The translations under genes and the position numbers were made by a program. A stretch of DNA of 64,000 bases from assembly GCF_026241755.1 (NCBI RefSeq), contig NZ_JAPJDA010000004.1:1-64000 (forward strand). The letters are read 5' to 3'. Below are positions 15,406 through 58,574 of this stretch, piece after piece. The notes under the pieces were generated by a model that was not told the DNA's origin, searched no databases, and worked only from the letters and a program-made list of their open reading frames with translations. Numbering within the stretch: the stretch's first letter is position 1; the number at the start of each line of letters is the position of its first letter. The DNA comes from Salinimicrobium profundisediminis (GTDB lineage Bacteria; Bacteroidota; Bacteroidia; Flavobacteriales; Flavobacteriaceae).

Positions 15406-16401
15406 TTAAAAAACCATCAGGTTACACCCTCTTATATCACTGTGGTCAAAACGGCCCAGTATTTCAGTCTTTCCCCCGCCTAAATTTTTTCCGAGGTCCT
15501 GCGTGGCAATGAAAGAGCAGGAATTAATATTGGCGAGGTCTATCACGTTGATTCCGCCAGACTTCCCTTCGGGGAGTAAGCTTAAGGCGTCTTCGGGTTC
15601 TCTTATAAGGATCTTCATCCAGGGTGGGCATTCAAAAATGCCATTTTTGAGGGCGTATGCCTGTGACAGTAGCTCGGTCATTCCATATTCGCTATGAATT
15701 TCCTGTACCCCCAATCCTTTTTTTAGCACTTCGTGAAGTTCGGTGCGTATCATTTCCTTGCGGCGGCCTTTCATTCCGCCGGTTTCCATCACAATAGTAT
15801 GCTTCAGGTTTAAACGGTATTGCTCTGCCAGATCCAGTAATGCAAAAGAAACACCTATAAGCAGTGTCTTTTGCCCTTTCTCTTCCAGCTCTTGTAGTTT
15901 TTGAACGAGCGCATCGAGGTCGTGAAGATAAAAACCGCTTGCCGGATTATTACTTTTCTCAATAAGATCCTGCACCATGTAGATCAATGAAGATCCTTTT
16001 CTTTCAAGATATGAGGGAAGAAGTGCGAGCACTGCATAATCTTCTACATTATTGTAGAAATGTGTGAAACCCCTGCGGAAACTTTCCTCATAAACCTTCA
16101 GGTCTGTAACGTAATGTTTGCTGGTTTGAGTACCTGTGGTGCCGCTGCTGCTAAAAATAACTTCAGCAGAAGCTTCCGAAGAAAGTATTTTATGAGATTT
16201 AAAGAGGGAGATTGGCAAAAAAGGGATTTCTTCAACACAGGTTACCTGTGCCGGACTGCGGTGCAACAGCTGGGCAAATTTTTGGTATACAGGGTTGTTT
16301 TTGTATTGATAATCAAATACCTGCAGCGCTTTTTTATTGAACTCCTCGAGAGTGGAAATGGAAAATATGTCCTTCAAATTGTCATAAAAAATTGAGGGCA
16401 C
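15406..16401 (-). CDS. LuxE-like acyl-protein synthetase / acyltransferase
   Basis: A 331-residue member of the LuxE/phenylacetate-CoA-ligase-like adenylate family. The AMP-binding signature is SSSGTTGTQTSKH near residue 87-100, with HSEYGMTELLSQAY further on. LuxE proteins activate a fatty acid as acyl-AMP; the substrate here is unknown, though a role in modifying a surface glycan or protein is plausible. It is a single gene, with no luminescence genes nearby. An exact copy of the 17-bp palindrome (15633-15649) is embedded in the coding frame (KNGIFE). Confidence 0.85.
   Translation of the reverse strand: MPSIFYDNLKDIFSISTLEEFNKKALQVFDYQYKNNPVYQKFAQLLHRSPAQVTCVEEIPFLPISLFKSHKILSSEASAEVIFSSSGTTGTQTSKHYVTDLKVYEESFRRGFTHFYNNVEDYAVLALLPSYLERKGSSLIYMVQDLIEKSNNPASGFYLHDLDALVQKLQELEEKGQKTLLIGVSFALLDLAEQYRLNLKHTIVMETGGMKGRRKEMIRTELHEVLKKGLGVQEIHSEYGMTELLSQAYALKNGIFECPPWMKILIREPEDALSLLPEGKSGGINVIDLANINSCSFIATQDLGKNLGGGKTEILGRFDHSDIRGCNLMVF
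15633..15649. repeat. 17-bp palindrome copy 1 (inside the LuxE-like gene)
   Basis: CAAAAATGCCATTTTTG, an exact 8-bp inverted repeat around one central base; read through as K-N-G-I-F-E. Confidence 0.9.
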
Positions 16402-16431
16402 AAAGGTACTGAATAAAATAAAGGATATGGG

Positions 16432-16776
16432 CTATCTTACCACAAGCTTTCGGGTAGCAGAACTTCGACCTTCCTGGATCCTCATAATATATACCCCTGG
16501 TTCAAGATTGGAGATATTGAGCTCATTCCCTGTTAATTGTGCAGAAAGGATGCTCTTGCCCAAAACATTATAGATCTCTACTCTTTTAGCTTTTCCCGCT
16601 TTAGTGTTAATGTACACTTTTTGACCTGAAGCAGGATTGGGGAAAATAGAAAGCCCTTCAATAGGAACTTCTTTTACAGGAGGTTCCGGGGCTGATACCT
16701 GTGCAAAAGCCGGGCTCGATAAGAGCAAAAGGCCAATGATCATAAGAGGGTACAAGTAGAGTTGTTTCATTTTCAA
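16432..16776 (-). CDS. Small secreted protein made almost only of a T9SS type A sorting domain
   Basis: It is 114 residues. A signal peptide (to about AFAQ, residue 26) is followed by a short Pro/Glu linker and then a complete C-terminal sorting domain: IFPNPASGQKVYI, VEIYNVLGKSI, NLEPGVYIMRI and a final RKLVVR. Type IX secretion uses this domain to pass the outer membrane. There is only about 15 residues of possible cargo, which is odd; normally the domain follows a large enzyme or adhesin. It may be the remnant of a longer gene or a genuine small secreted protein. It is a single gene. Confidence 0.88.
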   Translation of the reverse strand: MKMKQLYLYPLMIIGLLLLSSPAFAQVSAPEPPVKEVPIEGLSIFPNPASGQKVYINTKAGKAKRVEIYNVLGKSILSAQLTGNELNISNLEPGVYIMRIQEGRSSATRKLVVR

Positions 16777-16871
16777 TACGGTATCAATTCAAAATTACAA
16801 TAAAAAATTCAAAAACCGCACCAAATTTTAGTTGCAGAAAAGTTAAAGCTTAATTTCTACACAATAATTTT

Positions 16872-16903
16872 CAAAAAAAGGGGTTGCGACATCGCAACCC
16901 CTT
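16872..16903 (-). terminator. Intrinsic terminator of the receptor/lipoprotein operon
   Basis: On the minus strand GGGGTTGCGA pairs with TCGCAACCCC around a 2-nt loop (16880-16901) and is followed by seven T. It lies 33 bp after the beta-helix lipoprotein stop codon. Confidence 0.9.
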
Positions 16904-16935
16904 AAAAACAAATCTATTAATAAACGGCTAATTCA

Positions 16936-18105
16936 TTAAAATTTTTGAGCCGCAGCCAGGTTGCTCCAGCTTTCAAAGACGCTTAGATCTGCACCTGTTG
17001 CATTCTCATCAAGCTCTAGTAAGTTGCCCGCTACCTCGGTGTCGTTAACGTTGTTCACCACAAGATCTTTACTGTACTCAAAATGAGCATTGGTAAATTG
17101 TAGTTGGTCATTTTCTACTTCCTGTAGCTGGTCATTGAGAAATATGATGGTTTCGTAATTACTCCCCACAATATTTTCGAAAGTTCCGGCGGTTCCCTGT
17201 TTTAAATCGTATGCAGCTTTGCCGCTGCGGTTATGGCCCCAAATACTCACATTTTTAACTGTACCCATTGAACGTGGTTCTGCATTGTTCTCACCTTTTC
17301 TGTTAGCCAGTTCAAAAGCGAAATCTCCCACGCCGTCGTATTGAACAATAGCAACATTATTAAGAGTTCCGCGGTAACCTTCATCCCAGTCTATTGAATC
17401 ATCTTCCATTCCTATAGCTACAAGGTTCCTGGCGTTTACAGTACCTCCATAGAATTCAAACCCGTCATCAGCGCCTTCAAAAGCCTCGAGGTTTTCAAGA
17501 GTGGTGCCGCTGCCTACCGCGAAGAAGGAGAAAGCATTGAATTCAAATTGGCCATCTGAAGATGCCTGCCCTGCATATTCGACTCTTACATACTTCAGGC
17601 TCCCCGAACTATCCTGATCATTGGTGCCTCCATACGGTAACTGCCCTGCTTCAGAGATTGAGGTTCCGCCGGGGGCGTTCATTTTGGCGCGGCCATGTAT
17701 ACCGATACCGCCCCAGTCACCGTCTCCACCTTCCGAATTTTTATTTTCAGAAGTAAAGACTATAGGTTTTGCTGCAGTACCCTCGGCTATTAATTTGCCG
17801 CCCTGTTCTACAAATAACAGGTTTACTCCTGCCGCCTGGTCTGCGGCGCTTATCGTGAAAGTTGTTCCTGGTTCTATGGTTAGTGTGGCTCCATCTTTTA
17901 CTGAAACTGCGCCTTTCAGGTTATAATTACCTTCTTTCACAAGGAGGTCTTCTGTAATATCCCCTTCAAGAACAGTGCCCTCAAGTATTCCTGAGTCGCC
18001 TCCTGTGCCGGGATCGGGGTTTGGAACATCATCATCACTGCTGCATGAAAACAAGCTGAGTGAGAGCGCGATTGTAAATGCGGTTTTTAAGAATTGGTTT
18101 TTCAT
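16936..18105 (-). CDS. Surface lipoprotein with right-handed beta-helix-like repeats
   Basis: The signal peptide ends in the lipobox SLFSC (Cys21), followed directly by SSDDD. Such acidic stretches after the lipid cysteine act as lipoprotein export signals in Bacteroidota, so the protein is probably on the cell surface. A low-complexity PDPGTGGDSG linker leads into a repetitive 330-residue body (VKDGATLTIEPGTTF, AKPIVFTSENKN, WGGIGIHGRAK, GSLKYVRVEYAGQ) of the parallel beta-helix kind seen in many Bacteroidota secreted proteins. It is 30 bp downstream of the TonB-dependent receptor in the same operon and probably forms a complex with it. There is no SusD, so this is not a Sus-type glycan system. 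The ligand is unknown. Confidence 0.85.
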   Translation of the reverse strand: MKNQFLKTAFTIALSLSLFSCSSDDDVPNPDPGTGGDSGILEGTVLEGDITEDLLVKEGNYNLKGAVSVKDGATLTIEPGTTFTISAADQAAGVNLLFVEQGGKLIAEGTAAKPIVFTSENKNSEGGDGDWGGIGIHGRAKMNAPGGTSISEAGQLPYGGTNDQDSSGSLKYVRVEYAGQASSDGQFEFNAFSFFAVGSGTTLENLEAFEGADDGFEFYGGTVNARNLVAIGMEDDSIDWDEGYRGTLNNVAIVQYDGVGDFAFELANRKGENNAEPRSMGTVKNVSIWGHNRSGKAAYDLKQGTAGTFENIVGSNYETIIFLNDQLQEVENDQLQFTNAHFEYSKDLVVNNVNDTEVAGNLLELDENATGADLSVFESWSNLAAAQKF

Positions 18106-18135
18106 TTTTTCTAATTTTTAGTTGAATATTTATGT

Positions 18136-20901
18136 TTAAAATTTAAAGGTGATGGAGGCTCCATAGGTGGTGCCGGTATCAAATGATTCTATAGTGTTGC
18201 TAAACTTATCAGGGAACCTTATTTCGCGGGTGGGATCCTGGAAGAACATGGTCTTTTCGTTGAGAAGATTTCTCGCGGTTAATTTGAGTCCCCAGCTTTT
18301 GTTGAATTGGGTGGTCCACACCAGGTCAAGTTGATCAACAGGCTTTTCGTAGATTTCATCGGCTCCTTCTACACCTACGGCATATATTCTTTTTCCAAAA
18401 GTGTTGTAAATGAGGTTTAGGGAAGACTCTGTATTGCCGCGCTTAAAAATTTGGTAAAGTAGATCGGCATTGATCCCCCAGTTTGATGCTCCCTGCAACT
18501 TTCGGTCTTTATTGGTTACTGCCGCGAAACGGGGGTTGTTTTCTTCGGCAGTTGCACGAGAATCCATCAGAATTCCGTTAAAGCCTACAGATAACCTGTC
18601 AAAAATGGCATTTTTGAAGAGGCTTCCGGCATTGAACCTGGCTTCGGCTTCTATTCCGTAGAGAACAGCTTCCTCAAAATTATCGAAATAAGTTCTGTAG
18701 CCTACAGAGGTGGCGCGGGCCAAACGCTCTATGGGGTCCTGGAGATATTTAGCAAAGGCGGTTACCGCCAGTAATTCGCTGTTAGTTGGAAAGAACTCAT
18801 ATTTCAGGTCTAAATTGTAGTTGCGAGAATTTAAAAGATCGGGGTTCCCTATTACCTGGTTGCCATCCCCATCCTGGTAAATTGTAGGCAAGATCTCTCT
18901 CATCCTGGGGCGGGTAGTGGTGATAGATGTCGCCAGCCTCAGGTTAGAGGTTTCGGTAAGTTGGTACCTGATGTTGAGGGCAGGGCTAATATCGAAGGGT
19001 TCATAGGTGATCTTACTGAACTTAGTATCGAGAGCTTTTTTATAAGTGATTTCTCTAGGTGCATATTCAGCGCGTACGCCCACATCAAGTAGTATATTGT
19101 CCCATTCCTTTAAAAAGATGAAATACCCGGCGTGTATGTATTGCTCCACCTGAATGTCGGGTGGTGTAGGGGCAAAATTGCCTGCATATTCCAGAAATCC
19201 TTCAGATAAACCTTGTTGGAAGAAAGCTTCAGGATCATTGGTATTCAGGTTTGGCAAGTTAGCCGAACTGACCTGTGCTGTGATTGTGCGGGTGAAGAAA
19301 TCGTAATTTATTCCGTCGAAATTATGCCCTATCTTAATTTTTGTGGAGAAGGTGTTGTCTTCTTTTTTCTGAATTCCCAACTCGTACTCAAGGCGGGAAC
19401 TAAAGCTAACGTTCTCCAGCTCCTGATAGAACCTGAAGGGATTAATGCCATTTGTGGTAATGTATTCTGCATCTTCCCCTGTGCCGGCAGCGCGCAGCAC
19501 CCTGCGATCGGGCACATTATTGTTGCCTATTCCTGTAGAGCCACCAAAATGCAGTTGATGTTTTTTGTTGTTCCATTCCAGGTCACCCAACAGCTGAAAG
19601 GTGAGCATGTCATTTTCTGTATACCGAATGTCACGGATAAAGAAATCTCTGTTGTTAAGCTGGGTAAATCCGTCATTCCTCCCATATGCTTCCCTTATAA
19701 AATTGGATGTATTCTGAAGGTAAATGGTATTGAAGTTCAGCTTCAGCATATCAAACCTGTCGTAATCAAGTGCCAGTAAAGCTGATTTTCGTGTGGAGAA
19801 ATCATAGTTTGTGGTAGAGAAATCCTGCCCTGGGGTGCCTTCAGAATTTAATGTGCGTTCTACCCCGTTTTTCTTCTCGTAAGAATTGCGATAGTTCATA
19901 CCAAAATATATACCCAGAGATTGTTTGTCTCCGTTTACCAGGCGTTGCCCGTGAGTTATTCCAAGAGTAGTAGCCAGTGGGGCAGTAATTTTTTCAGGAG
20001 TCCAGGAAGTGGAAAATGGGCTGGTAGATTGTGCGGGTGCGGCAGGCAGTTCCCGGCTGTTTCCGGTATATCCCAGATATTCCAAATCACTGCTGTTATC
20101 GATCTTGTAATCTTCAAAAGTGGAATTTGTGTTGTAATTAACCCCAACTGTTACCGTGGTAGCGGGCTTTGAAGGTGCGGTGATAGTGTTGACATTAAAA
20201 GTTGCGCCCGCAAAATCCTGATACAGCGAAGGACTAAAGGTTTTATAAACATCTACGTAGCTCACAATATTGGTGGCGATGTAACTAAGCGGAATAATTT
20301 TAAAATCGGGGTCTGAAGATGCTACGGGAAGTCCATTCATCGTTAGAAAATTATAACGGTCATCCAATCCCCTTACAAAAATACCCCTGTCTCCCACCAT
20401 GCTAATGCCAGAGACCTTGGAGAGGCCCTGCTCTACGTTATTGATCCCTTTTCTTGACAGTTCTTCAGCGCCAATAGCCTGTTTTATTGTAATGGCATTT
20501 TTCTGCTCTAATAGCAGTGCCACTTCAGAATCGGCCCTTGATACCGTAGAAATAACAACTTCATCCAGGGAAGAAGCAGTGGTTCCAAGTTGAGTGTTTA
20601 TTTCTGTTACTTTACCCGGTTCTACCCGCACATTGGGGATTTCGAGCTGTTCGTATCCTACAAAGCTAAAGGCAACAGTGTAGCTTCCGGGTTCAAGATT
20701 TTCTATTTCAAAAAGTCCGTTTACGTTAGTAGTTCCACCTGTACCTGTGCCTTTCACGAGTACATTTGCAAAGGGGAGGGGTTCGCCCTGCATTTCCTTG
20801 TCAGTTAATTTCCCGGCAATGCTACCGGTGTGTTGTGTCTCCTGTGCCAACAGGTTTGAAAAGGAAAGGAGTACTGCGGCACCAATCAAAAGAAGTCTCA
20901 T
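18136..20901 (-). CDS. TonB-dependent outer-membrane receptor
   Basis: A 921-residue receptor for energised import across the outer membrane. In order: a signal peptide (MRLLLIGAAVLLSFSNLLAQ); a carboxypeptidase-regulatory-like beta domain at about residues 28-105; the TonB-box-like SSLDEVVIST; the plug at about 125-235 (GISMVGDRGIFVRGLDDRY); and a beta-barrel ending in the expected aromatic (SITFKF). A TTG at 20925 would add eight residues before the signal peptide, so the ATG at 20901 is preferred. It is followed by the lipoprotein gene and is divergent from a PhoB/PhoR-type pair across repeats resembling a Pho box. Phosphate or a phosphorus compound is therefore a plausible but unproven substrate. 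One exact 17-bp palindrome lies in the coding frame (18600-18616). Confidence 0.93.
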   Translation of the reverse strand: MRLLLIGAAVLLSFSNLLAQETQHTGSIAGKLTDKEMQGEPLPFANVLVKGTGTGGTTNVNGLFEIENLEPGSYTVAFSFVGYEQLEIPNVRVEPGKVTEINTQLGTTASSLDEVVISTVSRADSEVALLLEQKNAITIKQAIGAEELSRKGINNVEQGLSKVSGISMVGDRGIFVRGLDDRYNFLTMNGLPVASSDPDFKIIPLSYIATNIVSYVDVYKTFSPSLYQDFAGATFNVNTITAPSKPATTVTVGVNYNTNSTFEDYKIDNSSDLEYLGYTGNSRELPAAPAQSTSPFSTSWTPEKITAPLATTLGITHGQRLVNGDKQSLGIYFGMNYRNSYEKKNGVERTLNSEGTPGQDFSTTNYDFSTRKSALLALDYDRFDMLKLNFNTIYLQNTSNFIREAYGRNDGFTQLNNRDFFIRDIRYTENDMLTFQLLGDLEWNNKKHQLHFGGSTGIGNNNVPDRRVLRAAGTGEDAEYITTNGINPFRFYQELENVSFSSRLEYELGIQKKEDNTFSTKIKIGHNFDGINYDFFTRTITAQVSSANLPNLNTNDPEAFFQQGLSEGFLEYAGNFAPTPPDIQVEQYIHAGYFIFLKEWDNILLDVGVRAEYAPREITYKKALDTKFSKITYEPFDISPALNIRYQLTETSNLRLATSITTTRPRMREILPTIYQDGDGNQVIGNPDLLNSRNYNLDLKYEFFPTNSELLAVTAFAKYLQDPIERLARATSVGYRTYFDNFEEAVLYGIEAEARFNAGSLFKNAIFDRLSVGFNGILMDSRATAEENNPRFAAVTNKDRKLQGASNWGINADLLYQIFKRGNTESSLNLIYNTFGKRIYAVGVEGADEIYEKPVDQLDLVWTTQFNKSWGLKLTARNLLNEKTMFFQDPTREIRFPDKFSNTIESFDTGTTYGASITFKF
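18600..18616. repeat. 17-bp palindrome copy 2 (inside the TonB-dependent receptor gene)
   Basis: CAAAAATGGCATTTTTG; read through on the minus strand as F-K-N-A-I-F-D. Confidence 0.9.
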
Positions 20902-20959
20902 TTTTGTCAATTTTCTATGCCGCAAAGAAAACTGTGCAATGTAACTATGGCGTTAGCTG

Positions 20960-21025
20960 AAAATTACCAATAGATCAACTAAAGGTTATGACTAATTAAA
21001 TTTAAGGTTAACAGAAGGTTATCAA
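20960..21025. promoter_or_regulatory. Phased 11-bp direct repeats, putative Pho-box-like operator
   Basis: On the plus strand AAGGTTA begins at 20982, 21004 and 21015, exactly 22 and 11 bp apart. A 5/7 match lies in the same phase at 20960, and weaker ones at 20971 and 20993. Read towards the receptor the units are TTGATAACCTT, CTGTTAACCTT and GTCATAACCTT. OmpR/PhoB-family regulators bind such 11-bp direct repeats, and the known cyanobacterial Pho box is built from CTTAACCT units with the same spacing. The site lies between the receptor operon and the response-regulator gene and could serve both. A possible -7 box, TATCTTTA (21055-21062), lies 30 bp downstream on the regulator side. Confidence 0.65.
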
Positions 21026-21089
21026 TGAATGGGAGTGGGAGGCGGCATAATTATTATCTTTACTTTTACAGGGTAAATTAACCACACCC

Positions 21090-34432: not shown

Positions 34433-34449
34433 CAAAAATGCCATTTTTG
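34433..34449. repeat. 17-bp palindrome copy 3
   Basis: CAAAAATGCCATTTTTG, extended to GTG(C)C/GGCAC-like flanks; not itself followed by a T-run beyond the stem. Confidence 0.9.
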
Positions 34450-34590: not shown

Positions 34591-37500
34591 ATGTACCTTA
34601 TTTTTGATACTGAAACCACGGGTCTTCCCAAGCGTTGGGACGCTCCTCTTACCGATAGTGATAACTGGCCGCGCTGTATACAAATCGCGTGGCAGTTGCA
34701 CGATGATATGGGGCGGGTAGTTGAGCATCAGGATTATTTGGTGCAGCCCGAAGGATTTAATATTCCCTATGATGCCGAAAAGGTACACGGGATCTCTACC
34801 GAGTTAGCTTTAGAACAGGGAGTGAGCCTACAGGAGGTGTTGGAGAAGTTCAACATAGCCCTTTCCCGCTCAAAATTTGTAGTGGGGCAAAATGTAGGTT
34901 TTGATGTGAATATTATGGGAGCCGAATTTCATCGGCTTCAAATGGAAAATACCTTGCAGCACCTGCCTGTGCTGGATACCTGTACCGAAGTAACTGCACA
35001 GTTGTGTTGTATTCCCGGTGGTAGGGGAGGGAAGTTTAAGCTTCCTACGTTGACCGAGCTGCACGAATTCCTTTTTCATGAGCCTTTTGCTGAAGCCCAC
35101 AACGCAACTGCCGATGTGGAAGCTACAACCCGCTGTTTCCTGGAACTCATAAGGAAAAGGATCTTTACTTCGGAAGAACTGGATGTAAAACCCGATTATT
35201 TCGAGAATTTTTCAGAAGAAAATCCGCAGCCAATTGAGCTAATCGGTTTAAAGCACATCAACCTGAAGAAGGCTTCCGAAGAGATTAGGAAAAGGCTTCG
35301 GAAGAAAGAAGGAACTGAAATTTCTTCCGCAGAAATAGAGGAAAACCTTGAAAAGCTTGATGAAGTTGCGTTTTCTCACCTTCATAACCACAGCCAGTTC
35401 TCCATTTTACAGTCTACCATTAGCATTAAAGATCTTGTGAACGCCGCGGCAAAGCAAAATATGCCGGCCGTAGCACTTACAGATCACGCTAACATGATGG
35501 GGGCTTTTCACTTTGTAAAAGAAGTTGGTATTTATAACAAGGGCGTAAAGGCTAAAAATGCAGCCGCCGCCGAAAATAATGAGCCTGCCACAGCCCGCGA
35601 ACTTAAAGCGATTGTGGGTTGTGAATTCTTTGTGTGTGAAAATCGCAAAGACAAGAGCAGAAAAGATAATGGTTACCAGGTAGTGTTGCTGGCAAAAAAT
35701 AAGAAGGGTTACCACAACCTCGCGAAGATGTCTTCTATGGCTTATACCGAAGGTTTTTACTACGTGCCGCGGATTGACAGGGAGGTGATACAGCAGTATA
35801 AGGAGGATATTATTGTTCTTACCGGAAACCTCTACGGGGAAGTTCCCGGAAAGATCCTGAATGTTGGTGAAAATCAGGCAGAAGAAGCGCTGCTTTGGTG
35901 GAAGGAACAATTTGGAGATGACCTGTATGTAGAATTAATGCGCCATAACCAGGAAGATGAGAACAGGGTGAATCCTGTTTTAGTTGAGCTGGCTAAGAAA
36001 CATGAGGTGAAGCTGGTGGCAACCAATAACACTTATTACTGTGAACAGGAGGATGCCAATGCGCATGATATTTTGTTGTGTGTGAAGGATGGTGAAAAAC
36101 AGGCTACGCCAATTGGCCGTGGCCGCGGTTACCGCTACGGGCTTCCCAATAACGAATACTACTTTAAGAGCGGTGATGAAATGAAGTCGCTGTTTAAAGA
36201 CCTGCCGGAAGCAATTTCTAATGTTCAGGAAGTTGTAGATAAGATTGAACCTTATGAGTTGGCACGGGATGTTTTATTGCCTGCGTTTACTATTCCCGAA
36301 GAATTTGTGGTGGCTGAAGATGCCGTTGATGGAGGGAAGAGAGGTGAGAACGCTTACTTAAAGCACATCACCTTTGTTGGGGCAGAGAAGCGCTATGGCG
36401 AAATTACGCCTTCAATTAAAGACCGGCTGGATTTTGAGCTTTCGGTAATCGAGAATACAGGATACCCGGGGTACTTCCTTATTGTGGAAGACTTTATTCG
36501 GGAAGCACGCAATATGGATGTTTCGGTGGGGCCGGGACGGGGATCGGCGGCAGGTAGTGCGGTGGCCTATTGCCTGGGTATTACCAATATCGATCCTATC
36601 AAGTACGATCTGCTTTTTGAGAGATTCTTAAATCCCGATCGTGTGAGTATGCCCGATATTGATATTGATTTTGATGATGAGGGTCGAAGCAGGGTTATGG
36701 ATTATGTGATCAAGAAATATGGCGCCAACCAGGTGGCGCAGATCATTACTTATGGTACCATGGCTGCGAAATCTTCTATTCGGGATACCGCGCGGGTACT
36801 AGACCTTCCTTTAAATGAAGCCGACAGGATTGCCAAGCTGATTCCCAACACCAAGCTCGCCAAGATCTTCGGAATGGACGAAAAGACCATTAGAAGTAGC
36901 TTTAGGAGTGAAGAGGTAGATAAGGTAAATGAGCTTCTTAATATTGCTGAAGGAGATGACCTTGAGGCTCAAACAGTGAACCAGGCGAGGATTCTGGAAG
37001 GATCTGTTAGAAATACCGGGATCCATGCCTGCGGGGTGATCATTACACCAAGTGATATTACCAACTTTGTGCCGGTTGCGGTTGCTAAAGATTCAGATCT
37101 TTATGTTACTCAATTTGACAACTCGGTTGTGGAAAGCGCCGGCCTTCTTAAAATGGATTTTTTGGGTCTCAAGACCCTTACCCTTATTAAGGATACCGTG
37201 AAGATCGTGAAGGGCAGACATGACATTGATCTTGACCCTGATAGTTTTCCGCTGGATGATGAGAAGACTTATGAGTTATTCCAACGAGGGGAAACGGTAG
37301 GGATTTTTCAGTATGAATCTCCCGGGATGCAAAAGCACATGAAAGACCTTAAGCCAACGGTCTTTGATGACCTTATTGCGATGAACGCTCTTTACCGGCC
37401 GGGACCAATGGAATATATTCCCAGCTTTATCGCCCGGAAGCACGGGGATGAGGAAATCGTTTATGATTTGCCGGCGATGGAGGAATACCTTAAAGAAACC

Positions 37501-38973
37501 TACGGAATTACGGTATACCAGGAGCAGGTGATGTTGCTGTCGCAAAAGCTCGCCAGCTTTACCAAAGGTGAAGCCGATGTTTTGCGGAAGGCGATGGGTA
37601 AAAAGATATTTTCGCTGCTGGAAGAATTGAAGCCAAAATTCCTTGATGGGGGAGAAAAGAACGGGCATCCGCGGGAAGTGCTTGAGAAAGTCTGGAAAGA
37701 CTGGGAGGCTTTTGCGTCTTATGCCTTCAATAAATCCCACTCTACCTGTTATGCCTGGATTGCCTATCAAACCGCTTATCTAAAAGCTCATTATCCTGCG
37801 GAATACATGGCGGCGGTACTTTCCAATAATATGAATGACATTAAGCAGGTGACGTTCTTCATGGAAGAATGTAAGCGAATGAAGTTGAAGGTGCTTGGGC
37901 CTGATGTTAATGAGTCCTACTACAAGTTCTCGGTTAACAGGGAAAACGCTGTCCGCTTTGGAATGGGAGCGATTAAAGGAGTAGGTGCAGGAGCTGTGGC
38001 TACCATAGTTGAAAACAGGAAAGATAAAGGTCCTTACAAATCCATTTTTGACATGGCCAAGAGGATAGACTTAAGGGCAGCCAATAAAAAAGCTTTTGAA
38101 AATCTCGCATTGGCTGGCGGTTTTGACAGCTTTGGCGATACGCACAGGGCACAGTACTTCCATGATGAAGGCGACGGCATTACGTTTTTGGAAAAGGTAG
38201 TGAAGTATGCAGCCAAATATCAGGAGAATGAAAATTCGGCCCAGGTGAGCCTTTTTGGTGACACTAGTGAAGTGCAAATCCCAGAGCCGGTGGTGCCTCC
38301 CTGTGAAGAATGGGGGACTATGGGAAAACTGAAGCGGGAGCGAGAAGTAGTGGGGATCTATATATCCGGGCATCCGCTAGATGATTTTAAAACCGAATTA
38401 AAATACTTCTGTAACGCCGTTTTAGCCGATTTCCAAAATCTGGAAGAAGCCGTAAATAAAGAACTCACTTTTGGAGGGGTAATTAGTGATGTACAGCATA
38501 GAGTGAATAAACAGGGGCAGGGTTGGGCCAGTTTTATCGTAGAAGATTATTCAGATTCGTACGAGTTTAGAATGTTCAAGGAAGAGTACCTCAAGTACCG
38601 CCATTTCCTGGTGCCCAACTCTTTTATTCACGCGAAGATCTTTATTAGAGAGGGTTATCCTAACAGGGAAACAGGTAGAAAAGGAGAGCCAAGGTTGCAG
38701 TTCAACAACATTCAGTTGCTGCACGATGTAATGGAGAATTACGCTAAGAAACTCACTATTCAGCTGAATATAGATGAACTTCAGGAGGATAAGATCGATG
38801 CTCTTTTTGATATTTTCAGAAATCACAGCGGAGAGAACCGGCTTAATTTTGTGGTGTATGAAATGAAGGAAAGAATAAAGTTGCACATGCCCAGCCGAAA
38901 ACAGAAAGTTAGGATTTCCCAGGAACTACTAAACGCGCTGGAAGAACAACAGGTATTGTATAAACTGAATTAA
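34591..38973 (+). CDS. dnaE: DNA polymerase III subunit alpha with N-terminal exonuclease domain
   Basis: The replicative polymerase, 1460 residues, about 300 longer than E. coli DnaE. Residues 1-205 are a DEDDh exonuclease of the DnaQ type (IFDTETTGLP near 4-13, VVGQNVGFDVNIM, HNATADVEATTRCF). The PHP domain begins near 263 (FSHLHNHSQFSILQS, LTDHANMMGAF). The polymerase palm has GPGRGSAAGSAVAYCLGI and the catalytic PDIDIDFDDEGR near 688. The helix-hairpin-helix and OB regions follow. A proofreading activity fused to the polymerase is the Bacteroidota arrangement I recall. It is a single gene, divergent from the DUF2383 unit only by terminator and spacer. Confidence 0.97.
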   Translation: MYLIFDTETTGLPKRWDAPLTDSDNWPRCIQIAWQLHDDMGRVVEHQDYLVQPEGFNIPYDAEKVHGISTELALEQGVSLQEVLEKFNIALSRSKFVVGQNVGFDVNIMGAEFHRLQMENTLQHLPVLDTCTEVTAQLCCIPGGRGGKFKLPTLTELHEFLFHEPFAEAHNATADVEATTRCFLELIRKRIFTSEELDVKPDYFENFSEENPQPIELIGLKHINLKKASEEIRKRLRKKEGTEISSAEIEENLEKLDEVAFSHLHNHSQFSILQSTISIKDLVNAAAKQNMPAVALTDHANMMGAFHFVKEVGIYNKGVKAKNAAAAENNEPATARELKAIVGCEFFVCENRKDKSRKDNGYQVVLLAKNKKGYHNLAKMSSMAYTEGFYYVPRIDREVIQQYKEDIIVLTGNLYGEVPGKILNVGENQAEEALLWWKEQFGDDLYVELMRHNQEDENRVNPVLVELAKKHEVKLVATNNTYYCEQEDANAHDILLCVKDGEKQATPIGRGRGYRYGLPNNEYYFKSGDEMKSLFKDLPEAISNVQEVVDKIEPYELARDVLLPAFTIPEEFVVAEDAVDGGKRGENAYLKHITFVGAEKRYGEITPSIKDRLDFELSVIENTGYPGYFLIVEDFIREARNMDVSVGPGRGSAAGSAVAYCLGITNIDPIKYDLLFERFLNPDRVSMPDIDIDFDDEGRSRVMDYVIKKYGANQVAQIITYGTMAAKSSIRDTARVLDLPLNEADRIAKLIPNTKLAKIFGMDEKTIRSSFRSEEVDKVNELLNIAEGDDLEAQTVNQARILEGSVRNTGIHACGVIITPSDITNFVPVAVAKDSDLYVTQFDNSVVESAGLLKMDFLGLKTLTLIKDTVKIVKGRHDIDLDPDSFPLDDEKTYELFQRGETVGIFQYESPGMQKHMKDLKPTVFDDLIAMNALYRPGPMEYIPSFIARKHGDEEIVYDLPAMEEYLKETYGITVYQEQVMLLSQKLASFTKGEADVLRKAMGKKIFSLLEELKPKFLDGGEKNGHPREVLEKVWKDWEAFASYAFNKSHSTCYAWIAYQTAYLKAHYPAEYMAAVLSNNMNDIKQVTFFMEECKRMKLKVLGPDVNESYYKFSVNRENAVRFGMGAIKGVGAGAVATIVENRKDKGPYKSIFDMAKRIDLRAANKKAFENLALAGGFDSFGDTHRAQYFHDEGDGITFLEKVVKYAAKYQENENSAQVSLFGDTSEVQIPEPVVPPCEEWGTMGKLKREREVVGIYISGHPLDDFKTELKYFCNAVLADFQNLEEAVNKELTFGGVISDVQHRVNKQGQGWASFIVEDYSDSYEFRMFKEEYLKYRHFLVPNSFIHAKIFIREGYPNRETGRKGEPRLQFNNIQLLHDVMENYAKKLTIQLNIDELQEDKIDALFDIFRNHSGENRLNFVVYEMKERIKLHMPSRKQKVRISQELLNALEEQQVLYKLN

Positions 38974-38977
38974 AAAA

Positions 38978-39016
38978 ACACTCTCCAAAAATGGCATTTT
39001 TGGAGAGTGTTTTTTT
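38978..39016 (+). terminator. Terminator of dnaE built on the 17-bp palindrome
   Basis: A perfect 16-bp stem (38978-38993 with 38995-39010) around a single G, followed by six T. Its inner 17 bp are the palindrome CAAAAATGGCATTTTTG; the outer arms add ACACTCTC/GAGAGTGT. Confidence 0.92.
38986..39002. repeat. 17-bp palindrome copy 4 (core of the dnaE terminator)
   Basis: CAAAAATGGCATTTTTG at the top of the dnaE terminator stem. Confidence 0.9.
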
Positions 39017-39073
39017 ATTATTTCATTCCCGACAAATTTTCTTCATCGGGTAAAACTTCAGTCGTGCTTCAGG

Positions 39074-49599: not shown

Positions 49600-49919
49600 C
49601 ATTTCAAAATGCCTTTTTTGAGAGGTGGGTTTCTATGTCTTTGCTTTTGATCTTCAGGATTTCTGCGGAAGATTTTTTCTTCTGAATCACTTTTTTGGCA
49701 GCTTTTTAGCTAATGCTGAAGTGTATAAATTAACAGGAAAACCTGAAGTCGAAACAGCAGTACGGGTTATGGCTTCAGTAGGGTTTAATTTTATTGCTTA
49801 AGCCAACTCACTCGTTTGAGTTAAGCAATTGAAAGCCATACGTTAAATTTGCGTCAAACCTTGAAAACAGGCCTAAAAAAATTTGCTACAAACGTATCTT
49901 TACCCCATATTCTTTTTAT
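49600..49919. other. 320-bp gap: palindrome variant, weak short frame, stem-loop
   Basis: It holds a decayed copy of the 17-bp palindrome (CAAAATGCCTTTTTTG, about 49605-49620). A 58-codon frame with a GTG start (49625-49801, ending ETAVRVMASVGFNFIA) matches nothing I know. A stem-loop has outer arms ATTGCTT/AAGCAAT and inner AACTCA/TGAGTT (49792-49829). A -7-like TAAATTTG lies at 49844-49851, upstream of the next gene. Confidence 0.4.
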
Positions 49920-50244: not shown

Positions 50245-50261
50245 CAAAAATGGCATTTTTG
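50245..50261. repeat. 17-bp palindrome copy 5
   Basis: CAAAAATGGCATTTTTG, 15 bp after the terminator stem and 75 bp before the next gene. Confidence 0.9.
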
Positions 50262-51607: not shown

Positions 51608-52656
51608 AAAAAGTATTGTTTATAGAAGATGATACCGTAGTACGGGAAAATACAGCTGAACTTTTGGAGCTGGCAGAATATGATGTGATCACAGCAGCAA
51701 ACGGGCGCTCTGGTCTTGAAGTGGCAAGGCAGGAACTGCCCGATATCATTGTTTGTGACATTATGATGCCCGAAATGGATGGGTATGGTGTTCTTGAGGC
51801 TCTTTCTCAGGATCCGCAAACCCGGCATATTCCGTTTATCTTTCTTTCAGCAAAAACCGAGCATAAGGATATTCGCCGCGGAATGGATCTTGGGGCAGAT
51901 GACTACCTCACGAAGCCTTTTGAAGAAGAAGAGCTTATGAGTGCTATAGAAAGCCGGTTGGCAAAAGTGGCAATTTTGAGCAAGCTTCAGGAGAACGGCC
52001 AGCCTGATGCTTCAGAAGAAACCCAGCAAAAAATTAATTCTCTCCAGGAGCTTAGGGAAGAAGTTAAAAAGTACGAGCAGCAAACTTTCAAGGCGGGTGC
52101 AACCATCTATGAAGAAGGGAAGCTGGGTAACCACTTTTTCTTTGTTGATAAAGGCGTGGTAAAAAGCCACCGTATGGACGAGTACGGGAAGGAGCTTATT
52201 ACCTCTATATATAAAGAAGGAGATTTTTTTGGAAATACTTCCTTTAAAAAGAGTGATGCCTATAGTGAATATGCCACCGCTATGGAAGAAACCCGGGTCT
52301 ATGCGGTTTCAAAAGAGGAGTTGAAGCAAATACTCATGAAAAACAGCAATATTACGCTGGAACTTATCGATGTAATGGGTGATAATATTGCAGGTATTAA
52401 AGAGCAACTGCTTGAAATGGCTTATGGATCTGTAAGAAAAAAAGCAGCACGAACCATCCTCTTGTTCTCCCAAAAAATAAGAAGGCATCCAACCCAGAGC
52501 ATCAGGATCTCCAGGAGTGATCTTGCCAGTGTGGCAGGTATGGCTTCAGAAACCCTTATCCGTACACTTTCTGATTTTAAAAAAGAAGGATTGCTCGAGA
52601 TTGAAGGCCGTAATATAAAGTTGCTCAACGTAGAGGCCCTCAAGAAAATCAGTTGA
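51604..52656 (+). CDS. Response regulator fused to a Crp/Fnr-type transcription factor
   Basis: 350 residues. Receiver domain at 1-120, with Asp52 in IIVCDIMMPEMDGYG and Lys in YLTKPFEEEE; a helical linker at about 135-165; a cyclic-nucleotide-binding-like beta barrel at about 166-275 (GATIYEEGKLGNHFFFVDKGVVKSH); then a Crp-type winged helix at about 285-345 (SRSDLASVAGMASETLIRTLSDFKKEGLLEIEG). Thus phosphorylation input is joined to a Crp/Fnr output. It overlaps its kinase by 4 bp. A perfect inverted repeat upstream of ric is a candidate target. I see no Cys cluster for an Fe-S sensor. Confidence 0.93.
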   Translation: MKKVLFIEDDTVVRENTAELLELAEYDVITAANGRSGLEVARQELPDIIVCDIMMPEMDGYGVLEALSQDPQTRHIPFIFLSAKTEHKDIRRGMDLGADDYLTKPFEEEELMSAIESRLAKVAILSKLQENGQPDASEETQQKINSLQELREEVKKYEQQTFKAGATIYEEGKLGNHFFFVDKGVVKSHRMDEYGKELITSIYKEGDFFGNTSFKKSDAYSEYATAMEETRVYAVSKEELKQILMKNSNITLELIDVMGDNIAGIKEQLLEMAYGSVRKKAARTILLFSQKIRRHPTQSIRISRSDLASVAGMASETLIRTLSDFKKEGLLEIEGRNIKLLNVEALKKIS

Positions 52657-52699: not shown

Positions 52700-52751
52700 T
52701 TTTTTCAGCCTGTCTTCCTGCATATTTTTGCCGGGTAAATAGATGTGACTG

Positions 52752-53564: not shown

Positions 53565-53603
53565 TAGTTTGTTTTAGATTAGTATTATTTAGTTTGTTTT
53601 TTG

Positions 53604-53640
53604 ATTGGCATCTTCAACTATAGGAGGTGCCAATTTTTTT
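53604..53640 (+). terminator. Intrinsic terminator after the second universal stress gene
   Basis: ATTGGCA (53604-53610) pairs with TGCCAAT (53628-53634), followed by seven T. Confidence 0.82.
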
Positions 53641-53652
53641 TAACACAAATTA

Positions 53653-53672
53653 ATAGGACAAAATTGTCCTAT
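53653..53672. promoter_or_regulatory. Perfect inverted repeat, candidate operator of ric
   Basis: ATAGGACAAAATTGTCCTAT: 9-bp arms around AA. A -7-like CATCTTTG (53709-53716) lies downstream. If transcription starts near 53723, the centre of the palindrome is at about -60, the classic class I position for Crp-type activators. Confidence 0.7.
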
Positions 53673-53758
53673 ATGACTCACCTCATAAACAAGCCTCTTT
53701 GCTTGCGCCATCTTTGTAACTCAAATTTAAACTCCTGTTAATCTAAAATAATACGATC

Positions 53759-54487: not shown

Positions 54488-54515
54488 TGAAATAATAAGA
54501 TAAATCCCTAATTCC

Positions 54516-54559
54516 GCCGAAAAGAAAACCTGCTTATTCGTGTTTCCTTTTCGGCTTTT
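54516..54559 (+). terminator. Hairpin between ric and norZ
   Basis: GCCGAAAAG (54516-54524) pairs with CTTTTCGGC (54547-54555), followed by four T. It may be a partial terminator that sets the ric/norZ ratio. Confidence 0.65.
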
Positions 54560-54571
54560 AATGACTTAAAT

Positions 54572-56851
54572 ATGAGTAAAGAAAAAAAATTATGGATCGC
54601 TTTCTTGCTGGTCATAACGGTGTCCTTTGCTGTTCTGGGTTACTACGGCTTTGAAATTTATCAAAAAGCACCACCAATGCCCGAGAAGATAGTTACTACC
54701 GAGGGTGAAATTATCTTTGAAGGTCAGGATATCAAAGATGGGCAAAATGTGTGGCAAAGTATGGGTGGCCAGGAAGTTGGCTCCATTTGGGGTCATGGGG
54801 CTTATCAGGCTCCCGACTGGACTGCAGACTGGCTTCACCGCGAAGCGCTGTTTATTCTGAATGAGTGGTCTCAGGATGATTACAACCTGCCCTATGATGA
54901 ACTTGAAAGTGAAAAGCAGGCGCTTTTGGAAAGAAGGTTGCAGCTGGAGTTAAGAGAGAATACTTATAACGAAGCTGAAAATGTTATCACAATTTCTTCT
55001 ATGCGGGCAAGGGCGGTAGTACATCTCAGCGATTACTATAAGGGGCTTTTTATGAACAATCCTGAGCTTGATGAACTGAGGAATTTTTATGCTATCCCTG
55101 AAAATTCTATTAAGGATGAGGACAGGATGCATCAAATGGCAGGATTTTTCTTCTGGGCCACCTGGGCAACAGTTACCGAAAGACCCGGAAGTGAAGTTTC
55201 TTATACCCATAACTGGCCTCCAGATGACCTTGTTGGCAATAAAGCTACGGGTGATCTATTAATATGGACAGGGTTCAGTATTATCCTTCTTCTTGTAGGA
55301 ATAGGAATAATGGTGTTCTATCACGCCAGGATGAAAGAGGAAGAAGAGCTGGAAAGACCGGTAAGAGATCCGCTAATGGATCAAACCCTTACTCCTTCTA
55401 TGCTCGCCGTGAAAAAGTATATGTGGATAGTTTGTGTGCTTATCCTCATACAAGTGACCTTTGGTGTGGTGACTGCGCATTATGGTGTGGAGGGCGACGG
55501 TTTTTATGGTCTCAACCTCGCCGATATTCTTCCTTACTCCATTTCCAGGACCTGGCACGTGCAGCTTGGTATTTTATGGATTGCCACTGCATGGTTAGGA
55601 ACAGGGCTCTACATTGCGCCTGCCGTTTCGGGAAAAGATCCGAGGTTTCAAAAATTTGGAGTGAACTTCCTCTTTGTTTGCCTGCTGGTTATTGTATTTG
55701 GTTCTATGGCCGGGCAATGGATGGGAATTATGCAAAAACTTGGATTAGCCGAGAACTTCTGGTTCGGGCACCAGGGTTATGAATATGTTGATTTAGGTAG
55801 GTTCTGGCAAATATTTCTCTTTGTGGGATTGTTCGTGTGGCTGGCACTTATGGTAAGACCGCTCATTCCTGTGATTAGACAAAGAACTTCAGAAAGGAAC
55901 CTGCTTATTATGTTCCTGGTTTCTTCTGCTGCAATTGCCTTATTCTATGGCGCTGGTCTTATGTGGGGGCGTCAAACCAATCTTGCAATCGCCGAATACT
56001 GGCGTTGGTGGGTGGTTCACCTTTGGGTAGAAGGCTTCTTTGAGGTGTTTGCTACCGTGGTATCTGCTTTCCTTTTCGTGAGGTTAGGTTTGTTGAGAAC
56101 AAAAACCGCTACGCTAAGTGTGCTTTTGGCTACCATTATCTTCCTTTCAGGAGGTATTTTAGGAACTTTTCACCACCTGTACTTTAGTGGTACTCCAACT
56201 GCGGTTATGGCTTTGGGGGCTACCTTTAGTGCCCTTGAAGTTGTACCTCTTGTTTTGATTGGGTACGAAGTTTATGAGAATTACAAACTTTCCAGGGCAA
56301 CCGCATGGCTTAAAGATTATAAGTGGCCTATCTATTGCCTTATAGCTGTAGCCTTCTGGAACTTCCTGGGAGCAGGGATCTTCGGTTTTATCATAAATCC
56401 TCCAATTGCGCTTTATTACATGCAGGGCCTTAACACCACAGCCGTTCACGCACACACTGCACTTTTCGGGGTGTATGGGTTCCTTGGAATCGGTCTCATG
56501 TTATTTGTGTTAAGAAGCCTTTTTAGAGTGCAGGTTTGGAATGACAAGCTGCTGAGTTTCTCTTTCTGGTCTATTAATATCGGGCTTATTCTTATGGTGC
56601 TGTTAAGTATACTTCCTATAGGTTTACTTCAAACGGTTGCCAGTGTGAATGAAGGAATGTGGTACGCTCGTTCAGCCGATTTTATGCAACAACCGGGAAT
56701 GGATACCCTGCGCTGGTTGAGGGCTATTGGGGATACTATATTTGCTGTCGGTCTCTTTGCTTTCGTCTGGTTCGTCTTTAGTCTGGACAGCCGTAAAAAG
56801 CTACCGGCCAATAAGAAGAAAGTACTTAAAAAAGAATATCAGGAAGCTTAA
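54572..56851 (+). CDS. norZ: Quinol-dependent nitric-oxide reductase (qNOR)
   Basis: 759 residues, inner membrane; it reduces 2 NO to N2O with quinol. Helix 1 (about 8-28) precedes a large periplasmic, cytochrome-like extension (to about 240, with GQNVWQSMGGQEVGSIWGHGAYQAPDWTADWLHRE, cited in parts) that lacks a haem c site, as in qNORs. The core has TWHVQLGILW, WWVVHLWVEGFFEVFATVV (FeB ligand and Glu), GTFHHLYF (two FeB ligands) and VHAHTALFGVYG (haem ligands). With ric it forms a nitric-oxide defence module; no nitrite reductase is visible. Confidence 0.96.
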   Translation: MSKEKKLWIAFLLVITVSFAVLGYYGFEIYQKAPPMPEKIVTTEGEIIFEGQDIKDGQNVWQSMGGQEVGSIWGHGAYQAPDWTADWLHREALFILNEWSQDDYNLPYDELESEKQALLERRLQLELRENTYNEAENVITISSMRARAVVHLSDYYKGLFMNNPELDELRNFYAIPENSIKDEDRMHQMAGFFFWATWATVTERPGSEVSYTHNWPPDDLVGNKATGDLLIWTGFSIILLLVGIGIMVFYHARMKEEEELERPVRDPLMDQTLTPSMLAVKKYMWIVCVLILIQVTFGVVTAHYGVEGDGFYGLNLADILPYSISRTWHVQLGILWIATAWLGTGLYIAPAVSGKDPRFQKFGVNFLFVCLLVIVFGSMAGQWMGIMQKLGLAENFWFGHQGYEYVDLGRFWQIFLFVGLFVWLALMVRPLIPVIRQRTSERNLLIMFLVSSAAIALFYGAGLMWGRQTNLAIAEYWRWWVVHLWVEGFFEVFATVVSAFLFVRLGLLRTKTATLSVLLATIIFLSGGILGTFHHLYFSGTPTAVMALGATFSALEVVPLVLIGYEVYENYKLSRATAWLKDYKWPIYCLIAVAFWNFLGAGIFGFIINPPIALYYMQGLNTTAVHAHTALFGVYGFLGIGLMLFVLRSLFRVQVWNDKLLSFSFWSINIGLILMVLLSILPIGLLQTVASVNEGMWYARSADFMQQPGMDTLRWLRAIGDTIFAVGLFAFVWFVFSLDSRKKLPANKKKVLKKEYQEA

Positions 56852-56858
56852 AATAAAG

Positions 56859-56930
56859 GAGGAGGCAAAGAGCTGGCATCGCTCCCATGAAGGGGGTGTC
56901 AAAAATGCAGTTTTTTGCCTCCTCTCTTTT
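56859..56930 (+). terminator. Long-looped hairpin between norZ and the His-rich membrane gene
   Basis: GAGGAGGCAAA (56859-56869) pairs with TTTGCCTCCTC (56914-56924) across a 44-nt loop that holds a decayed 17-bp palindrome (CAAAAATGCAGTTTTTTG). It may be a weak terminator or a processing site. Confidence 0.55.
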
Positions 56931-56945
56931 TCCTACTTTTAAAAA

Positions 56946-58166
56946 ATGATCAGTTTAAAGAAGCACGCCAATATCGCCCTGGGATATTTTTTTCTCGTGG
57001 GGCTGCTGGGAACATTCCTGCGATTCTTTTTTGTAATCCCTATTCCTGCAAATTTCAGGTACGTGGTGCACTCGCATTCTCATATCGCCCTTTTGGGCTG
57101 GGTCTTTATTGCCCTCACCACAATGATCTATAAAATGTATTTTGCTGAAGCTGGCTTCGGAAAAATCTATAAAAGAATATTCTGGTTTACGCAGATTACT
57201 TTAATAGGAATGATGCTCACCTTTCCGTTTACCGGGTACGCTCTTTTTTCAATCACTTTTTCTACACTTTTTCTCTTTGCCTCTTATTTTATGGCCTGGT
57301 TTATCCTGAAGAAGACTCCTTCACATTATAAATCCACTTATTCTTTCAGGCTTATTAAAGCTGCACTTTGGTATATGGTTTTCTCCAGCATTGGCCCATG
57401 GGCGCTGGGCGGAATTATGGCCACTATGGGTAGTGCGAGCATTTGGTATAAAATGGCGATCTATTACTACCTGCATTTTCAATACAATGCCTGGTTCATC
57501 CTCGCTTTGCTGGGGATTTTCTTTTATTTTATGGAGCAACAAGACCTGAGGCCTCAAAAAGGGCATTTTAGAAGCTTCTTCTGGCAGATTAATGTAGCGG
57601 TGATCTTGAGTTTTTTCCTCTCTGTGCTTTGGGTAGAACCACACTGGATCTTTTATGTGCTGGGTGGTGCCGGAGCGATATTTCAGATTATGGCGTTCGT
57701 TAATTTCTGGAAGATCATTTCGCCCTTTTGGAAACAACTTCATTTTTCCGCATTTTTAAAACTTTTACTAAAGATAGCAGGCGCTGCACTGGCCTTTAAG
57801 CTTGTTTTACAACTGTTTTCAGCTTTGCCGTGGTTCGCAAATCTCGCCTTCAGTTTCCCCGATTTTGTCATAGGTTACCTGCATTGGGTGTTCCTGGGAG
57901 TAGTGACGGTTTGTCTCTTTGCATTCCTCGCTCATCACCGGTTGCTAAGCCTTCCGAAGTGGGTATTCTGGCTGTACATTGCGGCTTTTCTCACTACTGA
58001 AGCGCTTATCTTCTACAAAGGCTTTATTACCTGGCAGGAAATGGCACTTTTTGAGAACTATTTTCGCTGGCTTGCCTATTGCAGCCTGTTTTTGCCATTA
58101 ACGGCAGGTATTCTTCTTATTAATAACATCTTAACTAAACGCCAAACTTCTGCTAAAAATCCCTGA
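56946..58166 (+). CDS. Polytopic membrane protein with haem-copper-oxidase-like histidine motif
   Basis: 406 residues with about eleven or twelve hydrophobic helices. The motif RYVVHSHSHIALLGWVF near residue 40 resembles the haem/metal histidine stretch of qNOR (VHAHTALFGVYG) and CcoN. Other His in helices are YLHFQYNAWF, GYLHWVFLG and AHHRLL. It is much shorter than a full subunit I. Encoded 95 bp after norZ on the same strand, so a role in NO handling or in norZ assembly is likely, but I cannot name the family. A weak haem-copper-oxidase relationship is inference. Confidence 0.75.
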   Translation: MISLKKHANIALGYFFLVGLLGTFLRFFFVIPIPANFRYVVHSHSHIALLGWVFIALTTMIYKMYFAEAGFGKIYKRIFWFTQITLIGMMLTFPFTGYALFSITFSTLFLFASYFMAWFILKKTPSHYKSTYSFRLIKAALWYMVFSSIGPWALGGIMATMGSASIWYKMAIYYYLHFQYNAWFILALLGIFFYFMEQQDLRPQKGHFRSFFWQINVAVILSFFLSVLWVEPHWIFYVLGGAGAIFQIMAFVNFWKIISPFWKQLHFSAFLKLLLKIAGAALAFKLVLQLFSALPWFANLAFSFPDFVIGYLHWVFLGVVTVCLFAFLAHHRLLSLPKWVFWLYIAAFLTTEALIFYKGFITWQEMALFENYFRWLAYCSLFLPLTAGILLINNILTKRQTSAKNP

Positions 58167-58217
58167 TTTAGTAATCTCTTAACTGCATGTCCTTTAGCTC
58201 TTCACTAAATTGAAGAT

Positions 58218-58439
58218 ATGAAGTTGTCAGCACATTTTTACGTAGTTATAGCTACTATCTTTTTGATCTTAGTGGCCGCACTTGTATTTTACAATGCTCC
58301 CTATAACATTGTATTTTATACCGTTTTGGTGGGGCAGGCCTGGTGGCTTTTAACTGTTTATAAGGTGCTTGTAGATGATTATTCTACAAAAAAGACTTTT
58401 AATGACTGGTATGAAGACCATCCTAAGATTGAAGAATAA
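58218..58439 (+). CDS. Small membrane protein, 73 aa
   Basis: Two helices (about 5-25 and 30-50) and a short soluble tail (DDYSTKKTFNDWYEDHPKIEE). No family is recognised. It lies 52 bp after the His-rich membrane gene on the same strand and is probably the last gene of the NO island. Confidence 0.7.
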   Translation: MKLSAHFYVVIATIFLILVAALVFYNAPYNIVFYTVLVGQAWWLLTVYKVLVDDYSTKKTFNDWYEDHPKIEE

Positions 58440-58557
58440 GAGGATTTTTTAATACCCGACAAAAAAACTTCCTTTTGATTCAATAAATGCTTATTAAATT
58501 TCCGGCAGTTATAGAAATGCCCGCTCCGGTCTTGCATTATTCCAGGTAAAGACGCTC

Positions 58558-58574
58558 CAAAAATGCCATTTTTG
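58558..58574. repeat. 17-bp palindrome copy 6
   Basis: CAAAAATGCCATTTTTG, intergenic, between the small membrane gene and the SPOR gene; flanked by TC/GCACC. The rest of the 264-bp gap shows no frame. Confidence 0.9.

Follow-up and report, generated by a model that had tools for sequence, protein, structure and literature searches.

Sequence-specific DNA uptake is not known to be established outside Pasteurellaceae and Neisseriaceae, which carry uptake signal sequences (USS) and DNA uptake sequences (DUS), respectively. We know of no self-DNA uptake signal in Bacteroidota. A different class of dispersed sites, those of Noc, SlmA, and MatP, consists of palindromes bound by a dimer, present at tens to hundreds per chromosome and also inside genes. 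Uptake sequences have been described as occurring about once per kilobase with a spacing more regular than random, and as sharing a puzzling excess of perfect copies, unlike regulator sites (PMC1626085). In this study, we examined a 17-bp palindrome (exact copy, CAAAAATGCCATTTTTG) that recurs in a 64,000-nucleotide stretch of Salinimicrobium profundisediminis, hereafter the window. The host genome, labeled G000, is an assembly of 4.04 Mb in 101 contigs.

A preliminary description of the window placed six exact copies at positions 15633, 18600, 34433, 38986, 50245, and 58558 and judged such a 17-mer unlikely to arise by chance. All six were found in place, and 100 dinucleotide shuffles of the window gave an expectation of 0. 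The whole-genome count that it called for returned 131 exact 17-mers with C or G (S) at the center and none for the reversed control, and the 15-mer with any center occurs 296 times in the host genome. Its statement that the center is C or G describes the six window copies but fails as a general rule, with S found in 193 of the 296 15-mer copies and A or T in about a third.

The window together with 20 stretches of 20 kb (400 kb) makes up a 464-kb sample, in which 37, 18, 27, and 63 sites carry 0, 1, 2, and 3 mismatches with the center left free, at a density that reads slightly high because some of the stretches were picked for holding copies, a bias that does not affect the whole-genome counts. 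Markov models of order 3 and 5 at the same size yield 0, 0, 0.7 to 1.7, and 12 to 13 sites. The genome therefore departs from the Markov comparison by which the preliminary description had proposed to judge the motif, with 37 perfect sites against 0 modeled. Perfect copies exceed singly mismatched ones both in this sample (37 versus 18) and among distinct sites in a mixed sample of the genus (134 versus 94). Density in the host ranges from 0.07 per kb for the 15-mer to 0.12 per kb when up to one mismatch is allowed.

The motif belongs to the genus Salinimicrobium (Flavobacteriaceae). Across 12 genomes of the genus, the 15-mer with any center is present in 296 (host), 246 (G108), 113, 108, 108, 104, 93, 60, 49, 14, 4, and 0 copies. 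S. terrae (G107) has 108 copies, G104 has 93, S. catena (G007) has 14, G100 has 4, and G106 has 0, where G104 and G106 are only 74 to 75% complete (G106, 74%). Other genomes used below are those of S. nanhaiense (G101), S. sediminis (G103), and S. xinjiangense (G109). A 13-bp core is found 460 times in the host, 34 times in S. catena, and at most 11 times in each of 197 genomes from other genera, in which the reversed 13-mer controls reach 10. The exact 17-mer is present as one copy in 2 of 98 genomes from other genera. An unrooted tree of LeuS and DnaE from ten species places S. catena and G100 together, apart from eight motif-rich species. Searches for dialects covered 200 kb from S. catena and another 200 kb from G100 and gave no other palindrome with arms of 6 to 7, gaps of 0 to 5, and at least 4 copies; with arms of 5, weak palindrome excesses appear in S. 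catena, the motif's own core included. No literature on this motif appeared among the matches listed.

The preliminary description had proposed a comparison of orthologous genes with and without a copy. At the in-gene sites where this could be done, the motif arose by substitution: motif-free orthologs are equal in length, and hence no insertion took place. The copy at 15633 to 15649 (like all copies here, listed without a strand) lies in a LuxE-family gene (15406 to 16401, minus strand) and covers the codons KNGIFE. It is exact in the host and seven other Salinimicrobium genomes, and S. catena and G100 carry non-motif DNA of the same length. The protein reads KNGIF in all eight motif species versus GDG[IV]F in S. 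catena and G100. In a second protein, FKNDIF in the host and G108 corresponds to FEN[ND]IY in three of four other orthologs, including that of motif-poor G100, and to KDNNIF in S. catena. The direction of amino acid change appears to have been toward the motif.

Other window copies can also be followed between species. The copy at 18600 to 18616, in a gene for a TonB-plug/beta-barrel outer-membrane protein (18136 to 20925, minus strand; codons KNAIFD), is identical in G108, the sole genome with a DNA-level ortholog among the compared stretches. The peptides given earlier for the two in-gene copies, KNGIFE in a LuxE-like gene and FKNAIFD in a TonB receptor, were correct (PF04443 for the LuxE-family protein, TonB-plug/beta-barrel for the other), but the claim that they occupy different frames was mistaken, since both lie in one frame (f2). 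The site at 34433 to 34449, in the gap upstream of dnaE and 141 bp ahead of its start, keeps the palindrome with at most one mismatch in six of seven aligned motif-bearing relatives, with other centers and flanks, and has three mismatches in S. sediminis. The intergenic site at 50245 to 50261 is exact, center aside, in G108 and S. nanhaiense, with one mismatch in S. terrae and three in S. sediminis. A form within leuS (2946 to 2962; gene at 474 to 3290, plus strand), proposed as a decayed copy, indeed has a single mismatch and is retained in relatives: the same one-mismatch form is found in G105, S. terrae, and G108, and a two-mismatch form in S. nanhaiense, G102, S. sediminis, and S. xinjiangense. 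Two further forms proposed as decayed, at 49604 and 56900, are present with three mismatches each, and they cannot be judged individually because about 1 in 5 three-mismatch sites is expected by chance (12 to 13 of 63).

Conservation between the host and G108 exceeds that of the surrounding DNA. Among 22 of the 37 exact host sites with an ortholog in the compared G108 DNA, 15 are exact, 6 have one mismatch, 1 has two, and none is worse; in the opposite direction, 15 of 16 sites (from 65) are exact and 1 has one mismatch. A displacement of the partner by as much as 15 bases was tolerated; 15 and 49 sites, respectively, lack an ortholog in the compared DNA. Flank controls were identical in all 16 of 16 positions for 14% of windows in genes and 18% in intergenic DNA, with an overall flank identity of 0.85. 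Exact retention at 15 of 22 orthologous sites, against 14 to 18% of flank windows, shows that selection acts on the DNA word itself, and it does so both within and between genes. In S. catena, at least two chromosomal sites lie at orthologous places, and therefore some sites are older than the split.

The palindrome is longer than 17 bp, with symmetric preferences beyond the core. In both halves, position +9 favors A or G, positions +12 and +13 favor G or C, and T prevails from +16 to +20 and a second time around +30; these preferences, T-tracts included, are alike in coding and intergenic copies. Single mismatches concentrate at the outer C/G and its adjacent base (69 of 94), and only 1 of 94 falls on the third or fourth A of the run. 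Among sites with two mismatches, 15 of 104 are symmetric, and 6 of these are paired (compensated); 6.9 symmetric sites are expected if positions are equal, and about 10 by estimate if position rates are unequal. This scarcity of paired changes in the core indicates that the word is read as DNA, and the element looks like the binding site of a dimer. In-gene sites are biased in frame, with 44 of 67 (up to one mismatch) in the one frame that reads KNxIF, and intergenic sites reach their highest density in convergent gaps (1.5 to 1.6 per kb).

We suggest that the palindrome is a self-recognition DNA uptake signal of the kind known from Haemophilus and Neisseria, a tentative reading that we hold to be possible but short of probable. 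An uptake-type signal was among the explanations offered by the preliminary description, and it is the best supported of them, by the evolutionary signature of the sites and by a decayed comEC in a motif-poor genus-mate, although the support stops short of proof. Under this model, a symmetric protein, probably a dimer, would recognize the core in double-stranded DNA and would also read the flanks, where GC stands at ±12/13 and T-tracts lie at ±16 to 20 and around ±30. This binder would be the DNA-binding part of the natural transformation machine, DNA bearing the signal would be taken up preferentially, and sites, being favored by uptake and recombination, would build up in number and be maintained. 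The signal would thus operate like the Haemophilus and Neisseria uptake sequences, around a distinct palindromic core.

Like USS and DUS, the palindrome is dispersed in and between genes, has more perfect than one-mismatch copies, originates by substitution, occupies long-lived sites, and builds terminators with some of its copies; like USS, it has AT-rich tracts beside the core. It differs in its palindromic 17-bp core, its symmetric flanks, its roughly tenfold fewer copies, and its occurrence in Bacteroidota, and its uptake role is that of a candidate. The extended Haemophilus motif is reported to include AT-tracts (PMC1852404, PMC7811141), and uptake sequences are described as forming some terminators in Neisseria and Pasteurellaceae (PMC1852404). 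Riemerella columbina, which its authors assign to the same family, is reported to prefer its own DNA in transformation, with no established signal and only A/T-rich k-mers put forward as candidates (PMC7965970), and Flavobacteriaceae are described as transforming by way of a partly unknown machine (PMC8459023).

The distribution of comEC bears on this proposal. A long open frame for ComEC (648 to 690 amino acids) is present in all nine genomes with at least 49 copies and in S. catena. In G100, with its 4 copies, comEC survives at the orthologous place only as dispersed fragments broken up by stops and large gaps, flanked by the same nearest neighbors as in the other species compared (L273:8654-9564, contig C11). 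This decay in a motif-poor genome fits an uptake signal that decays after uptake is lost.

Most S. catena copies sit in an unusual setting. Ten of its 14 copies lie within attC-like repeats, eight on two small contigs and two near the ends of two others. The two small contigs (L174 and L175; C15 and C8) are arrays of short open reading frames (ORFs), mostly in one orientation. The attC-like repeat is 125 to 127 bp long (six measured) and has inverted ends of attC type, with the element and its flanks between them; it is also found at least in S. xinjiangense and S. sediminilitoris. We consider it somewhat unlikely that a Bacteroidota uptake signal, recognized by a transformation machine of Flavobacteriaceae type and strong enough to alter conserved peptides, has been built into the attC-like sites of the arrays so that mobile cassettes carry their own tag. 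The cassette portion is our boldest reading, drawn from the position of the element; should the element serve as an uptake tag, every cassette would carry one. As separate observations, in the integron-like arrays (L174, L175, L050, and L055) an attC-like repeat of about 126 bp comes after many of the ORFs. This repeat holds the palindrome, which in S. catena frequently has one mismatch. In a second type of array repeat, a one-mismatch copy lies next to one arm, and each array has a gene for an IS110-family transposase close to one end of its contig.

Several points weigh against an uptake role. We know of no uptake core that is palindromic, and the density of 0.07 to 0.12 per kb is about tenfold under that of known uptake sequences. 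S. catena has an intact comEC yet only 14 copies. G106, with 0 copies and 74% completeness, gives only a sub-threshold ComEC match in a small ORF with no resemblance by eye. Furthermore, because S. catena and G100 group in the unrooted tree, the link between comEC and motif number amounts to one event, and comEC decayed in a lineage that has few motif copies in any case. Transformation in Salinimicrobium and a surface receptor are putative, and simple patterns revealed no other competence genes in the sampled DNA, a result that says little. The symmetry and number of sites would be explained as well by a chromosome-organizing protein. Finally, the spacing of sites is random, unlike the more regular spacing reported for uptake sequences (PMC1626085). 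If the proposal is nevertheless correct, the uptake signal would be new for Bacteroidota. A genus with a clear, conserved candidate signal and near-motif-free relatives provides a direct assay system.

A genus-specific protein that organizes the chromosome or controls division, like Noc, SlmA, or MatP, is also possible, if rather doubtful. Such a cytoplasmic dimer would sit at about 100 to 300 places and spread along or bridge DNA. It would account for a symmetric palindrome whose inner A/T run is strict and whose outer bases are degenerate, for copies both in and between genes, and for a copy number within the range known for such sites. The closed chromosome of G108 (one contig of 3.51 Mb, with 104 copies of the 17-mer in which the next base is A, G, or T) allows the placement of sites to be judged. 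The GC skew of 20 G108 stretches suggests an origin near 1.75 Mb and a terminus near 3.4 Mb to 0, and the presumed origin-side half holds 64 of the 104 sites (P of about 0.02; 63 sites if the origin is shifted by 50 kb). For 100 of the 104 sites (the other four sit beyond 3.32 Mb), uniformity is weakly rejected (Kolmogorov-Smirnov P of 0.04), but the spacing is random, with a coefficient of variation of 1.13 inside the random range of 0.82 to 1.21. In the site map of G108, no empty or exclusive domain and no macrodomain or polarity pattern was seen. Strand polarity was dropped as a candidate property because both orientations are intermixed along the chromosome. One ParB is present in 11 of 12 genomes, including motif-poor S. 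catena and G100, and none was found in the 74% complete G106; a Noc/KorB-type ParB paralog was accordingly rejected. For the nucleoid-site explanation raised by the preliminary description, the dimer-like site and the somewhat higher density in the origin half speak in favor, but no macrodomain or polarity pattern and no extra ParB/Noc-type gene were found. The motif resembles Noc, SlmA, and MatP sites in being a dispersed, palindromic, dimer-type site that also occurs inside genes, and it differs in that placement is not limited to domains, that no protein relative was found (ParB_N alone was searched), and that its signature is nearer to uptake sequences. The excess of perfect over singly mismatched copies also speaks against a chromosome protein, which in addition offers no obvious reason for the element to reside in attC-like repeats. 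If the binder does organize the chromosome, it would be tied to this genus and worth finding, and whether it serves this role or uptake, the motif is a ready bait for its protein.

Another intracellular DNA-binding role, such as that of a broad regulator or of a HIP1-type palindrome linked to repair, recombination, or methylation, is unlikely. Usual methylase sites are far shorter than this core, no candidate gene was found, and 14 of the 37 exact sites in the 464-kb sample lie within genes, unlike a regulon. Some features of intergenic placement are compatible with such a role. Sites in codirectional gaps are closer to the upstream stop (mean relative position of 0.30 to 0.32), and divergent gaps have the fewest sites per kb in G108, but not in the host. 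HIP1, as presented in PMC4390886, is an earlier case of an abundant palindrome whose function is unsettled. The cyanobacterial HIP1 is likewise a lineage-specific palindrome in very high excess; it is, however, 8 bp long, denser, and linked to orphan methyltransferases, whereas the present element has 17 bp and extended flanks. An element acting at the RNA level, either by terminating transcription or as a hairpin that an RNA protein binds, is very unlikely. The preliminary description correctly assigned one copy to the dnaE terminator: the copy at 38986 to 39002, which starts 12 bp past the dnaE stop (gene at 34591 to 38973), forms the top of a hairpin, and the entire inverted repeat (38971 to 39017, plus strand) adds 15 pairs per side to the 17-mer, folds as RNA with a z-score of -8.25, and is flanked on both sides by A and T runs. 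This copy has the stable stem followed by a T-run of an intrinsic terminator, and the motif in general does not. For the remaining window copies, five in all, folding is close to that of shuffled sequence (z-scores of -1.39 to +0.49). A long stem, with at least 5 extra paired bases, accompanies only 18 of 134 distinct exact sites and is absent from 116; the restriction of copies to terminators, which the preliminary description had named as a refuting outcome, therefore did not occur. An RNA hairpin as the general role was rejected, given the little covariation in the core. Least likely of all, to the point of being highly improbable, is a small self-spreading palindrome, a REP-like element moved by a RAYT transposase. 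A RAYT-like gene (Y1_Tnp match barely above the cutoff) does lie 40 bp from a copy in the host and in G108, and the motif shares with REP/REPIN elements a lineage-specific, palindromic, repeated character. However, it has no insertion signature and no conserved longer unit past the weak flanks, and copies are conserved in genes, where the motif-free orthologs have the same length and altered codons. Ten of 12 sampled Y1_Tnp loci lack a copy with at most one mismatch. Y1_Tnp matches do not follow motif number (S. terrae has 108 copies and no match, S. catena 14 copies and four), although this test is weak because it missed the RAYT-like genes beside the host and G108 copies. With no aligned in-gene site representing an insertion and two close species sharing positions, the self-spreading explanation offered by the preliminary description is refuted where tested.

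The remaining features of the window are minor. The intergenic copy at 58558 to 58574 lacks a long stem. Two-mismatch forms lie within genes at 51962 to 51978, a weak form with a one-mismatch counterpart at the equivalent place in G108, and at 57555 to 57571. Beyond the window, viral contigs include 13 stretches with a motif match, one each. Two motif-like sites 131 bp apart (L142:1920 and 2051; also L036 and L048) keep equal spacing in three species and lie inside one gene in G108. Among genes closely downstream of sites, viewed as candidates for an autoregulated DNA-binding gene, one ArsR-like and one MarR-like ORF were conspicuous by eye.

Other repeats were encountered in the same DNA. On host contig C16 (L023:16286-16870), 155-bp tandem repeats each combine a motif-like copy with a second palindrome, GATGGCATGCCATC. 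The RAYT-like gene at 16854 to 17438 of L023 adjoins the array, and G108 has the gene and a single motif copy without an array. In 100 kb from each of four other genera, a strong palindrome excess was found only in G153, where all 8 copies form a local repeat within about 6 kb of one locus; one 20-kb stretch of that genome (L214) holds 15 copies of TAACGAGTATCCC at steps of 69 bp or larger and 8 copies of AACAAA-N8-TTTGTT. Lastly, TTCTTCGGAA is overrepresented in Salinimicrobium, with 16, 22, and 31 copies on both strands in 100, 100, and 200 kb of the host, G108, and S. catena, respectively, and its sequence resembles a short stem capped by a UUCG loop.

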